64,000 bases of DNA from Modestobacter sp. VKM Ac-2982 (GTDB taxonomy: Bacteria; Actinomycetota; Actinomycetes; Mycobacteriales; Geodermatophilaceae), in assembly GCF_026967935.1 (NCBI RefSeq), contig NZ_JAPVBL010000001.1, positions 496,001 through 560,000 on the forward strand, written 5' to 3'. Shown here one piece after another: positions 11,625 to 35,211 of this stretch. The notes below the pieces were generated by a model. That model was not told the origin of the DNA. It worked only from the letters and a program-made list of their open reading frames with translations, and made no database searches. A program made the position numbers and the translations under genes. Position 1 is the first letter of the stretch. Each line of letters opens with the position of its first letter.

Positions 11625-12292
11625 GCGGGTCGGGAGCCGAGTCCGTGCGCCTGTTGCTGGTCGACGACGACGCGCTGGTGCGGGCGGGGCTGCGCGCCGT
11701 GCTCGCCAGCGCCCCGGACCTGCGTGTGGTCGGTGAGGCCGGGGACGGCGCGGAGGCGCTCGACGCCGCGCTCCGGTTCCGGCCGGACGTCGTCCTGATG
11801 GACGTGCGGATGCCGCGGATGGACGGGCTGGCCGCCACGGCCGCGCTCACCGCACGCCCCGACGCACCCCGGGTGCTGGTGCTGACCACCTTCGACCTGG
11901 ACGAGCACGTCTTCGGTGCGCTGCAGGCCGGCGCCAGCGGCTTCCTGCTCAAGGACACCCCGCCGCGGGAGCTGGTGCAGGCGGTCCGGGTGGTCGCCGC
12001 GGGTGAGGCCATGCTGTCCCCGACCGCCACCCGGAGGCTGATCACCCGCTACACCGACACGGGCGCCGACGCCCGCCGGCAGGAGGCGCGGGGACGGATC
12101 GAGACCCTCACCGAGCGGGAGCGCGAGGTGCTGCTCGCCGTGGGGCGCGGCCTGTCCAACGCCGAGATCGGCCGGGAGCTGTTCCTCAGCGAGGCCACGG
12201 TGAAGTCGCACGTCTCGCGGGTCTTCACCAAGCTGGGCACGGCCAACCGGGTCCAGGTGGCCATCCTCGCCCACGTCGCCGGGCTCCTCTGA
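11621..12292 (+). CDS. NarL/LuxR-type response regulator
   Basis: 223 aa. The receiver domain (1-~120) has the acidic pocket LLLVDDDALV and phospho-Asp61 in VVLMDVRMPRMDG. The C-terminal LuxR-type helix-turn-helix covers ~155-220 (LTEREREVLLAVGRGLSNAE, then LSEATVKSHVSRVFTKL). The GTG overlaps the kinase stop (GTGA), making a coupled pair. Targets are unknown and no transporter accompanies the pair. Confidence 0.94.
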   Translation: MSGSGAESVRLLLVDDDALVRAGLRAVLASAPDLRVVGEAGDGAEALDAALRFRPDVVLMDVRMPRMDGLAATAALTARPDAPRVLVLTTFDLDEHVFGALQAGASGFLLKDTPPRELVQAVRVVAAGEAMLSPTATRRLITRYTDTGADARRQEARGRIETLTEREREVLLAVGRGLSNAEIGRELFLSEATVKSHVSRVFTKLGTANRVQVAILAHVAGLL

Positions 12293-16300: not shown

Positions 16301-16733
16301 CAGCAAGGAGTTCCTCTACGGGCTGCGGCAGGGCGTGGAGCACTCGGTCGACCTGGAGCCCGGGGTGCGGCTGCTGATCGCGATCGAGGCGATCTCGGAC
16401 GCCGACGAGCGGGGGATGCGCACGGTGATGTGCACGCTCAACGGCCAGCTCCGGCCGGTGTCGGTGCGGGACCGGTCCGTCACCTCCGACGTCCAGCCCA
16501 CCGAGAAGGCCGACCGCAGCGACCCGGGGCAGGTGGCCGCGCCGTTCGCCGGGGTGGTCAGCCTGTCGGTCGCCGAGGGCGACACGGTCGAGGCCGGGGC
16601 GCAGCTGGCCACCATCGAGGCGATGAAGATGGAGGCCGCGATCACCGCCCCCCGGGCCGGCACGGTCTCCCGGGTGGCGATCAGCGCCGTCCAGCAGGTC
16701 GAGGGCGGTGACCTGCTCGTCGTCCTGAGCTGA
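13359..16733 (+). CDS. pyc: Pyruvate carboxylase
   Basis: 1124 aa, full length for the single-chain enzyme that makes oxaloacetate from pyruvate, bicarbonate and ATP. Biotin carboxylase domain 1-~450: VLVANRGEIAVRAFRAAYEL at the start, the glycine-rich KAVAGGGGRGMR and EMNPRIQVEHTVTEEV. Carboxyltransferase ~530-800: TDTTFRDAHQSLLATRVRT and metal-site HLHTHDTPGG. Biotinyl domain at the C-terminus with EAMKMEA and biotinyl-Lys1090. GTG start follows a GAGAGGGG stretch. With pckG at 45404 it supports anaplerosis and gluconeogenesis. Confidence 0.97.
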   Translation: MFEKVLVANRGEIAVRAFRAAYELGAGTVAVFPHEDRNSVHRLKADESYEIGEPGHPVRAYLDVAEIVRAAQRAGADAVYPGYGFLSENPDLAEACARAGITFVGPSAAVLELTGDKSRAIAAAREAGLPVLQGTDPSDDVDTLLAAADAIEGPVFVKAVAGGGGRGMRRVEQRDQLRSAIEAAMREAESAFGDATVFLEQAVIDPRHIEVQILADGQGDVIHLYERDCSVQRRHQKVIEIAPAPNLDPALRERICADAVAFARQIGYSCAGTVEFLVDREGRHVFIEMNPRIQVEHTVTEEVTDVDLVGSQLRIAAGETLADLGLTQESIVLRGAALQTRITTEDPANGFRPDTGRITAYRSPGGAGVRLDGAATLGAEVGAHFDSMLVKLTCRGRTWDIAVARARRAVAEFRIRGVSTNIPFLQAVLDDPDFQAGRVTTSFIEERPELLTARSSADRGTKMLTYLADVTVNAPHGERPHLVDPVEKLPRLDLALHPLDGSRDRLRELGPERFAADLRAQKALAVTDTTFRDAHQSLLATRVRTKDLLAVAGHVARATPQLLSIEAWGGATYDVALRFLHEDPWERLAALREAVPNICLQMLLRGRNTVGYTPYPEQVTTAFVAEAARTGIDVFRVFDALNDVGQMRPAIDAVRETGTAVAEVALCYTADLSDPAEQLYDLDYYLRLAEQIVEAGAHVLAIKDMAGLLRPPAAATLVTALRERFDLPVHLHTHDTPGGQLATLMAAWQAGVDAVDGASAALAGTTSQPALSSIVAATDHTERATGLDLTRVNDLEPYWESVRRVYAPFESGLPAPTGRVYTHEIPGGQLSNLRQQAIALGLGQRFEEVEAMYAAADRLLGRLVKVTPSSKVVGDLALQLVGAGVAVEDFAADPGKHDLPDSVVGFLRGELGDPPGGWPEPFRSRALEGRRPAEPPAELSEEDLTGLAKEPRSTLNRLLFPGPTTEFQAHREAYGDTSVLPSKEFLYGLRQGVEHSVDLEPGVRLLIAIEAISDADERGMRTVMCTLNGQLRPVSVRDRSVTSDVQPTEKADRSDPGQVAAPFAGVVSLSVAEGDTVEAGAQLATIEAMKMEAAITAPRAGTVSRVAISAVQQVEGGDLLVVLS

Positions 16734-16780
16734 GCGACGGCCCCAGCCGCCTCCCTATCCGCTCCCCACCCAGCGCTCGC

Positions 16781-32159: not shown

Positions 32160-32451
32160 GTCGGACCTCCGGGTGACCGGCGGAGGGTCACTCGGCCCTC
32201 CGGACCAGGCGCACGCTCGTCCCGCCGCGAGGAGGTGGTCAAGGCGCGACAGAGCCTGGATCGGCGCTGTGCACGTCGCCTCGCGGCGCGTCGTCACCGA
32301 CCGGGTGGCGTCGTCCGGCATGTCGCGGTCGGCGCGGACCGGTCCGTCACGCTGGGTGGAGCTGTTGCCTCGGTCACGTAGGCGTGCATCGGGGCGCTGG
32401 TTACCCGACAGTAGGTCGATCCGGACTCCCCCGAACCAGGAGGCACCGACG

Positions 32452-33705
32452 ATGACGTCGACCGCCAGCCGCCCCGCCGAGATCGACGACACCTGGCCGC
32501 CCCAGCCACCCGTCCTGCACTCCCCGTGGCACACGCCCGAGCGGGCCGCGCTGATGGAGCAGGCGCGCCGGTTCGCCATGGACGAGGTGCTGCCGGTCGC
32601 GAACGAGCTCGACCCGCAGAAGGGCGAGATCCCGCAGCACCTCCTCGAACGGCTCGGCGAGCTCGGGTGGTTCGGCATCACCGTTGCCGCGGCCGACGGT
32701 GGGCTGGGGCTCGGCGTCTTCGAGTACTGCATGGTCAGCGAGGAGCTGGCCCGGGCGTGGATGAGCGTGGCCAGCATCCTGGCCCGGTCGCAGGGCATGG
32801 GGACGGCGGTCGCCGACCCCGACCGCCGCCGAGAGCTGCTGCGGCGCAGCGCCGGTGGCTCCTGGATCGGCGCGGTGGCGCTGTCGGAGCCCGAGGCCGG
32901 CTCTGACCTGGCGAACGTGCAGACCCGCGCGGTGCGCGACGGCGACGACTGGGTGGTCACCGGGCGCAAGCGCTGGTGCGGCAACGCCAAGGCCGCCGAC
33001 TTCATCCAGGTGCTGGTCCGGGTGGCCGATCCGCAGCCGGGGGAGTCCCGTTCCCGGGGGCTGCGGAACCTGCTGCTGGTCAAGGAGCGCGGCGCGTTCC
33101 CGCCCGGGCTGTCCGGCCACGCCATCGACAAGGTCGGCTACCACGGCTTCCTGACCTGGGACCTCACCTTCGACGGGGTCCGCATCCCGGCCGCGGACCT
33201 GATCGTCGCCCCCGGCGAGGGCGGCTCGGACTCCGGCGCCGGGTTCCGCGAGGCGCAGGCCTTCCTGAACACCGCCCGGGTGCACACCGCCGCCCGCGCC
33301 GTCGGCCTGGCCCGGGCCGCGGTCGAGGACTGCGTGCTCTACCTGCAGGAGCGCGCGCAGTTCGGCCACCCGATCGGTGACTTCCAGGCGCTGCGGTTCG
33401 CGCTGGCCGAGATGGCCGCGGACGTGGAGCAGGCGCGGGCGTTCTACCGCCAGGTGGCCCACCTGCTCGACGAGGGCGTGCCGTGCGAGCGGGAGGCGGC
33501 GATGGTGAAGCTGCAGGCCACCGAGATGGCGGTGCGGGTCACCAACCAGGCCATGCAGCTGCACGGTGGCAACGGCTACACCACCGAACGGCAGGTGGAG
33601 CGGCACTGGCGGGACGCCCGGCTCACCACGATCTTCGAGGGCACCAGCGAGATCCAGAAGCGGATCATCAGCAACACGATGCTCCCGCGCAGCCCGCTGG
33701 GCTGA
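32452..33705 (+). CDS. Acyl-CoA dehydrogenase
   Basis: 417 aa. FAD/substrate motif VALSEPEAGSDLANVQTRAV near residue 143 and C-terminal IFEGTSEIQKRIISN with the catalytic-Glu region are those of the ACAD family. ATG 32452 has AGGAGG 8 nt upstream. Divergent from fmdB across a 292-nt gap in which I see no strong operator. Only distantly like the 3380 gene. It ends inside a tandem 24-nt repeat that supplies its last codons and stop. Confidence 0.92.
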   Translation: MTSTASRPAEIDDTWPPQPPVLHSPWHTPERAALMEQARRFAMDEVLPVANELDPQKGEIPQHLLERLGELGWFGITVAAADGGLGLGVFEYCMVSEELARAWMSVASILARSQGMGTAVADPDRRRELLRRSAGGSWIGAVALSEPEAGSDLANVQTRAVRDGDDWVVTGRKRWCGNAKAADFIQVLVRVADPQPGESRSRGLRNLLLVKERGAFPPGLSGHAIDKVGYHGFLTWDLTFDGVRIPAADLIVAPGEGGSDSGAGFREAQAFLNTARVHTAARAVGLARAAVEDCVLYLQERAQFGHPIGDFQALRFALAEMAADVEQARAFYRQVAHLLDEGVPCEREAAMVKLQATEMAVRVTNQAMQLHGGNGYTTERQVERHWRDARLTTIFEGTSEIQKRIISNTMLPRSPLG

Positions 33706-33776
33706 CGGGAGAGCAGCCCGCTGGGCTGACGGGAGAGCAGCCCGCTGGGCTGACGGGAGAGCAGCCCGCTGGGCTG
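33690..33776. repeat. 24-bp tandem repeat, 3.6 copies, each a hairpin
   Basis: The unit CAGCCCGCTGGGCTGACGGGAGAG repeats exactly at 33690, 33714 and 33738, with a partial fourth copy 33762-33776. Each unit contains CAGCCC-GCT-GGGCTG, a 6-bp stem with a 3-nt loop, so four small hairpins stack. The first copy overlaps the end and stop of the acyl-CoA dehydrogenase. Probable terminator or mRNA-stabilising array. Confidence 0.9.
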
Positions 33777-33933
33777 CCTGTGAGTCCGGCCGGGTTCGGT
33801 GTCGGCCGGGGATCGACTGGGCAGGAGAGGGCCGCGCCACCGGCGTGCCACGCGGACTCGCCGGGCACGCCCATCTCCTCAGCACCGGGGGATCCAGCGC
33901 CGGTCCCCGCTCGTCCCGGGGAAGGAGACGCAC

Positions 33934-35211
33934 GTGTCATCGCAGCACGACCAGCCACCGTCGGCGGGCCCGCCGACCGACGCCTCCGCCAGCGGACAGG
34001 CGGGGACGGCGACCGACGCCGGTGTGCCCGCTGGGGTCCGGACCGCCGGGATGTGGTGCCTCTGGACGCTGGCGATCGGCGCCGTCGTCTACTTCGCGGT
34101 GCAGCTGGCCGTCGTCCTGGGCACCGTGGTGCTCACCTTCCTGGGCGGTCTGCTGCTGACCGCGCTCCTGCGGCCGGTCGCCTCCTGGCTGGACCGGACC
34201 GGGCTGCCCCGCCTGGCGGCGACCTGGCTGGTGATGGTGCTCTTCCTCGTCCTGCTGGGCGGGGTCGGCTACTTCCTGCAGCAACGGGTCGCCCGGGAGT
34301 GGGCCAGCCTGCGCCCCACCCTGGTCAGCGGGCTGGACCGGGTGCGCACCAGCCTGGTCGAGACGCTCGGCCTGCCCCGGGAACGGGTCAACTCGATCAT
34401 CGACGGGCTGATCGCCCAGCTGACCGGCGGGTTCGGGGGTGGCGCCGGCGGGCCGGGGATGGTGGTGACCGGTGCCACGACCGCGGTCACCGTGGCGGCA
34501 GGGCTGGTCCTCGCCCTGTTCACCGCGTTCTGGCTGATCTACGACGGGGCCCGGATCTGGCGGCTGTGCCTCCGGATCGTGCCGGCCGACCGCCGGGCGG
34601 CCGCCGACGACGCGGGGAACGGCGCCTGGCACACCCTGGGTGGATACCTGCGGGGCACCACGGCCGTCGCGCTCATCGACGCCGTCGGCATCGGCCTGGC
34701 GCTGCTGCTCATCGGCGTGCCGCTCGCCTTCGCCCTGGCCGTGCTGACCTTCCTCGGCGCCTACATCCCGGTCGTCGGTGCATTCGTGGCGGGGCTGGCC
34801 GCGGTGGTGGTCGCCTTTGCCGCGGGCGGGCTGACCGACGCCCTGCTCGTGCTGGGTGCAGTGGTCGTGGTCCAGCAGATCGAGGGCAACCTCCTGCAGC
34901 CGCTGATCATGCGGCGGACCGTCTTCCTGCACCCCCTGGGGATCGTCTACGCCCTCACCGTCGGCGGCCTGCTGTGGGGGATCGGTGGGGCGGTGATCGC
35001 CGTGCCGCTGGCCGCCGTGGTGTACGCGATCGCCGTCGCCCTGGCCGACCGCAAGGGCGGCGAGGAGCCAGAACCGCGTCCGCGGGGCCTCCGTCTCCGG
35101 ACCGGCGGTGCCTCCCGGGCCGACGCGCCGTCCGCCGACGGCCGGCCGGCCGTCGGCAACGGGGGACCTAGCCGCCGGGACCAGGCAGCGGAGGCGTCCG
35201 AGGGCTCCTGA
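33934..35211 (+). CDS. AI-2E family transporter (permease)
   Basis: 425 aa. About seven to eight membrane helices with family-typical segments: FLGGLLLTALLRPVASWLDR near residue 70, LTFLGAYIPVVGAFVAGLAA near 270 and VVQQIEGNLLQPLIMRRTVF near 310. Members export small molecules or ions (AI-2, Na+/H+). GTG 33934 has AAGGAG 6 nt upstream. A charged C-terminal tail (~370-425) is unusually long. Its 3' end overlaps the converging kinase gene by 44 nt. Confidence 0.92.
   Translation: MSSQHDQPPSAGPPTDASASGQAGTATDAGVPAGVRTAGMWCLWTLAIGAVVYFAVQLAVVLGTVVLTFLGGLLLTALLRPVASWLDRTGLPRLAATWLVMVLFLVLLGGVGYFLQQRVAREWASLRPTLVSGLDRVRTSLVETLGLPRERVNSIIDGLIAQLTGGFGGGAGGPGMVVTGATTAVTVAAGLVLALFTAFWLIYDGARIWRLCLRIVPADRRAAADDAGNGAWHTLGGYLRGTTAVALIDAVGIGLALLLIGVPLAFALAVLTFLGAYIPVVGAFVAGLAAVVVAFAAGGLTDALLVLGAVVVVQQIEGNLLQPLIMRRTVFLHPLGIVYALTVGGLLWGIGGAVIAVPLAAVVYAIAVALADRKGGEEPEPRPRGLRLRTGGASRADAPSADGRPAVGNGGPSRRDQAAEASEGS

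Follow-up and report, generated by a model that had tools for sequence, protein, structure and literature searches.

A Modestobacter minisatellite probably derived from an acyl-CoA dehydrogenase gene end

Bacterial minisatellites (VNTRs) consist of near-identical head-to-tail units of about 10–100 nt. Those of Mycobacterium tuberculosis include the MIRUs, described in PMC2734929 as 100-bp repeats at 41 scattered places, and the same account reports that fpg1 is preceded by a variable array of tandem repeats, the length of which correlates with the expression of this gene. In 13 genomes, hairpin clusters located just past stop codons have been reported to act as units of termination, in an account that describes the poly-U trail as not being a universal need among bacteria (PMC8355165). 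Hairpins are also associated with quasipalindrome-type mutations, which involve a fold-back template switch. Here we compare these systems with a tandem array at the end of an acyl-CoA dehydrogenase gene in a 64-kb stretch of DNA from Modestobacter sp. VKM Ac-2982, the whole of which is referred to below as the window. The array points to no new system, and is very probably an ordinary minisatellite born from the dehydrogenase gene's own 3′ end.

The acyl-CoA dehydrogenase gene occupies positions 32446–33705 on the plus strand, and encodes 419 residues with the C-terminus MLPRSPLG. The Pfam domains PF00441, PF02771, and PF02770, assigned in Pfam/NCBIfam scans, bear out the gene identity given in an earlier note on this DNA. 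Relatives of the enzyme at E≤0.001 are present in all 59 genomes searched, its own genome included, and a close orthologue (at least 90% identity) occurs in 12 other Modestobacter genomes. A separate search gave 166 relatives, of which the best 80 were retained. Tandem Repeats Finder identifies a plus-strand array at 33689–33776 with a period of 24 nt, 3.7 copies (3.67 units), 100% matches, and no indels, which agrees within one base with the 3.6 copies at 33690–33776 noted earlier. The array exceeds chance, and its score of 176 is the highest among the 12 rows for the window. Each copy contains a 15-nt core, CAGCCCGCTGGGCTG, at positions 33690–33704, 33714–33728, 33738–33752, and 33762–33776, respectively. 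The final 17 bases of the dehydrogenase gene, stop included, form part of copy 1, and the core of this coding parent copy comprises the last base of the Arg codon, the Ser-Pro-Leu-Gly codons, and the first two bases of the TGA. Core copies 2–4 (33714–33776) are untranslated and lie 3′ of the stop. An exact search of the 4.78-Mb Modestobacter genome returned four matches to the core, on one strand and all within the array, and none to a reversed-pattern control. This single genomic place rules out a dispersed repeat, and a REP/MIRU-like element would be expected at many genomic sites.

Downstream of the array, an AI-2E family transporter gene is located at 33934–35211 on the plus strand (Pfam PF01594, E 9.6e-51; end taken from the ORF). 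Its GTG start at 33934, placed on the basis of the preceding GGAAGGAG, is 157 nt 3′ of the array. In the sequence 5′ of the transporter gene, CTCCTCAGC..CGGG at 33875–33891 is kept in six Modestobacter species as judged by eye, in contrast to a good part of the intergenic sequence around it. With three genome-wide matches versus seven for the reversed control, it can be dismissed as a widespread motif. The transporter gene of Modestobacter sp. VKM Ac-2985 has a tandem 18-nt direct repeat, GCGTCCACCGGCGGGCAG, in its first codons, and no array of this type was seen by eye at that position in the other five aligned species.

The ending RSPLx-stop is common to 67 of 85 orthologous gene ends, mostly from Geodermatophilaceae, which identifies copy 1 as the old gene end, i.e., the native dehydrogenase 3′ end (Arg-Ser-Pro-Leu-Gly-stop) and not an inserted element. 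The array thus begins inside the coding region, on the final codons, as had been claimed, but it does not supply the stop from outside, since the TGA of copy 1 is native and copies 2–4 were duplicated from copy 1. Copy number was compared among 87 distinct gene ends, which remained from 103 orthologue rows after subtraction of 15 rows for loci already counted under another identifier and one incomplete row. For 84 of the 87, the gene's own last 15 bases are not repeated within 200 nt when up to two mismatches are allowed. The window has three extra copies, the first of them exact and 8 nt past the stop. In Modestobacter sp. VKM Ac-2984 there is a single extra copy, which carries one mismatch and lies 9 nt past the stop, for a period of 25 nt. 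The remaining case, from a distant MAG, is a chance-like match with two mismatches 173 nt from the gene end. Adjacent extra copies are therefore confined to two of the 87 ends, which suggests that the gene end was duplicated in a small clade and then expanded in the window.

The window and VKM Ac-2984 have in common the right flank past the last copy, CCTGTGAGTCCGGCC, but their linkers differ (ACGGGAGAG vs. ACTGCGGGAG, respectively), for which reason the first duplication would not have been a clean slippage of today's unit. A doubled exact core was found in only one of 112 genomes of the family, the window's own, and is absent from the remaining 111; VKM Ac-2984 escapes this search because its second copy departs from the exact pattern by one mismatch. 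Some DNA match was obtained in 19 of 23 genomes of the genus, in several of them only at the coding end or at unrelated places. Of all the gene ends compared, the window alone shows the expansion to nearly four identical copies.

Based on these copy-number states, the following course of events can be proposed. The last five codons of the dehydrogenase and its stop spell a near-palindrome through codon choice. This gene end would have been tandemly duplicated just past the stop in the ancestry of the window strain and VKM Ac-2984, and a later rise from two copies of the 24-nt unit to nearly four would have taken place in the window strain. Polymerase slippage or unequal recombination between identical copies is the presumed mechanism, perhaps aided by the hairpin, which could stall the polymerase. 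The protein remains unchanged because copy 1 keeps its own stop, and the expansion was probably close to neutral with respect to selection. Three points support the recent slippage expansion suggested in the earlier note: the copies here are identical, one close relative has two of them, and the other orthologues compared have no adjacent second copy. What the locus offers is a clean series of three states, with one, two, and nearly four copies, for the way in which a gene end can seed a minisatellite across its stop; the array may also serve as a strain marker.

The order of these events depends on how three species are related. Across about 9.3 kb in four blocks, the window and VKM Ac-2984 are 95.1% identical and form the closest pair of the trio, VKM Ac-2985 being 94.0% identical to the window and 93.8% identical to VKM Ac-2984. 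A maximum-likelihood tree built from these blocks groups the trio at 100/100, but within it joins the window with the single-copy VKM Ac-2985 at weak support (SH-aLRT 87.5/bootstrap 79), so that identity and tree disagree on the sister species of the window. If the tree is correct, the minisatellite explanation requires either that VKM Ac-2985 lost its second copy or that the events were separate. Most simply, the duplication would have arisen in the ancestry of the trio or within it, with loss in VKM Ac-2985 as a possibility.

Near-perfect arrays (at least 95% match, a period of at least 9, and about three or more copies) are no rarity in this genome and number four in 304 kb, with the studied array included; this total comprises twelve other stretches of the same genome and the window, the latter selected owing to the studied array. 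One array of 13 nt × 4.5 (97%) lies between two minus-strand ORFs (stretch L142, positions 16686–16743). Another, of 27 nt × 5.3 (98%; stretch L138, positions 12140–12282), lies close to the start of a 350-residue minus-strand ORF, in which it encodes the proline-rich repeat PPPPPPGSW.

As for secondary structure, a single core folds into a 6-bp stem capped by a GCT loop, at −8.8 kcal/mol as RNA. The earlier proposal that each copy folds as CAGCCC-GCT-GGGCTG holds for a core taken in isolation, but in the predicted fold of the whole array (−62.6 kcal/mol, z −3.8; none of 200 shuffles as stable) neighbouring copies pair with each other instead of forming four separate hairpins. Perfect stems of at least 6 bp (loops of 3–8 nt) number 348 in the window, the array's own included, compared with 307–345 in five mononucleotide shuffles, and a single 6-bp hairpin of the array type is hardly above background in this GC-rich sequence. 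Among orthologues, stems with loops of 3–5 nt were counted at the 67 RSPLx-stop ends of the 85 examined, i.e., 13 from Modestobacter, the window included, and 54 others, the remaining 18 ends (one incomplete row among them) lying outside the count. Seven of the 13 Modestobacter ends have stems of 6 bp or longer; codon usage predicts 0.6, and the observed number was reached in none of 500 draws. This excess is not counted as selection because related species use the same codons. In the six other Modestobacter orthologues the terminal Gly is replaced, by Ser in five and Ala in one, which breaks the 6-bp stem. Outside Modestobacter, a 6-bp stem occurs in none of the 54 ends (0.5 expected from codon usage) and a 5-bp stem in one (1.5 expected). 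The hairpin is accordingly a product of codon choice in the gene end. A conserved RNA hairpin is ruled out by the lack of a 6-bp stem in the 54 ends and its retention in only part of the genus, as is a known RNA family, the only two Rfam matches (a snoRNA model and a miRNA model) being far below their gathering scores.

The first copy can form a longer structure. The predicted stem CTCCCG-(CG)-CAGCCC-GCT-GGGCTG-(A)-CGGGAG at 33682–33711 on the plus strand has a folding energy of −21.3 kcal/mol as RNA (z −3.45) and −13.1 as DNA (z −3.95), and its outer part is limited to copy 1 because CTCCCG precedes this copy only. The corresponding fold in VKM Ac-2984 reaches −12.9 as DNA (z −3.16), and the single-copy end in VKM Ac-2985, which has no outer stem, −8.3 (z 0.15). 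In both multi-copy species, complementarity between the bases past the first stop and the codons preceding the hairpin lengthens the first stem.

In a variant of the minisatellite explanation with the same outcome, not simple slippage but fold-back template switching at the hairpin would have given rise to the first duplication, with the linker as an inverted copy of the upstream codons. In the window, the linker CGGGAG is the reverse complement of the CTCCCG just 5′ of the hairpin; the VKM Ac-2984 linker contains GGGAG and, together with the first bases of copy 2, a 7-base match (GGGAGCA) to the reverse complement of the upstream codons. However, for matches within the linker of this length or more (6 bases in the window and 5 in VKM Ac-2984), the frequencies are 1.8% and 8.0%, respectively, among random genome stretches and 7.5% and 16.7% among shuffled linkers, and the two linkers are not independent tests as they are possibly related. 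Furthermore, the linker may partly be old flank, since two single-copy relatives have CTGCGG soon past the stop. With a linker match that is only mildly unusual, a template-switch origin is a weak candidate that we consider unlikely.

Turning from the origin of the minisatellite to a possible function, the array could act as a multi-hairpin terminator without U-tract, or as a stabiliser of the mRNA 3′ end, with copy number strengthening the insulation of the AI-2E transporter gene. The hairpin clusters of PMC8355165 give precedent for such units, the array folds better than all 200 shuffles, the extended first stem is stable, and 6-bp stems exceed the codon-usage expectation within Modestobacter, although that excess is inflated by shared ancestry. 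On the other hand, a simple scan detected no terminator-like site with a T-run in 33300–34300, a classical intrinsic terminator is ruled out as the array has no U-tract, the size of the stem is near its background frequency in GC-rich sequence, and the stem is disrupted by Ser or Ala in nearly half of the Modestobacter orthologues and all but missing elsewhere. These points make the proposal improbable as an account of the array, yet the array may have a mild role of this kind, given that PMC8355165 proposes poly-U-free hairpin-cluster termination after stop codons. More specific, and more improbable still, is the de novo evolution of a terminator without U-tract out of coding sequence in this high-GC actinobacterium, the palindromic gene end being amplified to a 3′ UTR of several hairpins and an outer stem being created around the stop. 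It is very unlikely that the copies are bound by a protein, be it a regulator of the downstream transporter or a DNA-organising factor. The near-palindromic unit, the 24-nt spacing, and the fpg1 precedent fit such a role, but the core is absent elsewhere in the genome, copy 1 lies inside coding sequence whose peptide is kept, and most gene ends have no second copy nearby. The earlier suggestion of an expanded terminator or protein-binding array lacks support in view of the missing U-tract, the rarity of 5- and 6-bp stems in other genera, and the restriction of the doubled exact core to one genome of the family; that neither the stem nor the extra copies appear conserved speaks against an established function. 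An assembly artefact is scarcely credible, since the 88 bp are embedded in a contig of 1.4 Mb, the genome is 99.99% complete in 14 contigs, and a two-copy form is present in the assembly of another species.

Compared with the described systems, the minisatellite reading of the array finds its closest match in the MIRU-VNTR loci of Mycobacterium tuberculosis. As in these, a short unit is present in identical copies at a gene border, and copy number differs between close relatives, with four core copies in the window and two in VKM Ac-2984, although all differences here are between species. Unlike the MIRUs as described in PMC2734929, the array has a shorter unit and occupies one place. Similar to the hairpin-cluster intrinsic terminators of PMC8355165, it has several hairpin-capable units less than 80 nt past the stop, and that account requires no U-tract; the array ends 71 nt past the stop. 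It differs in that its predicted hairpin derives from codon choice, and that the structure is not kept among orthologues (6-bp stem in 7/13 Modestobacter and 0/54 others). The complementarity between post-stop and pre-hairpin bases in both multi-copy species resembles quasipalindrome template-switch mutations, but the array is a direct duplication, not only a repair of hairpin arms, and the statistical support for the likeness is weak.
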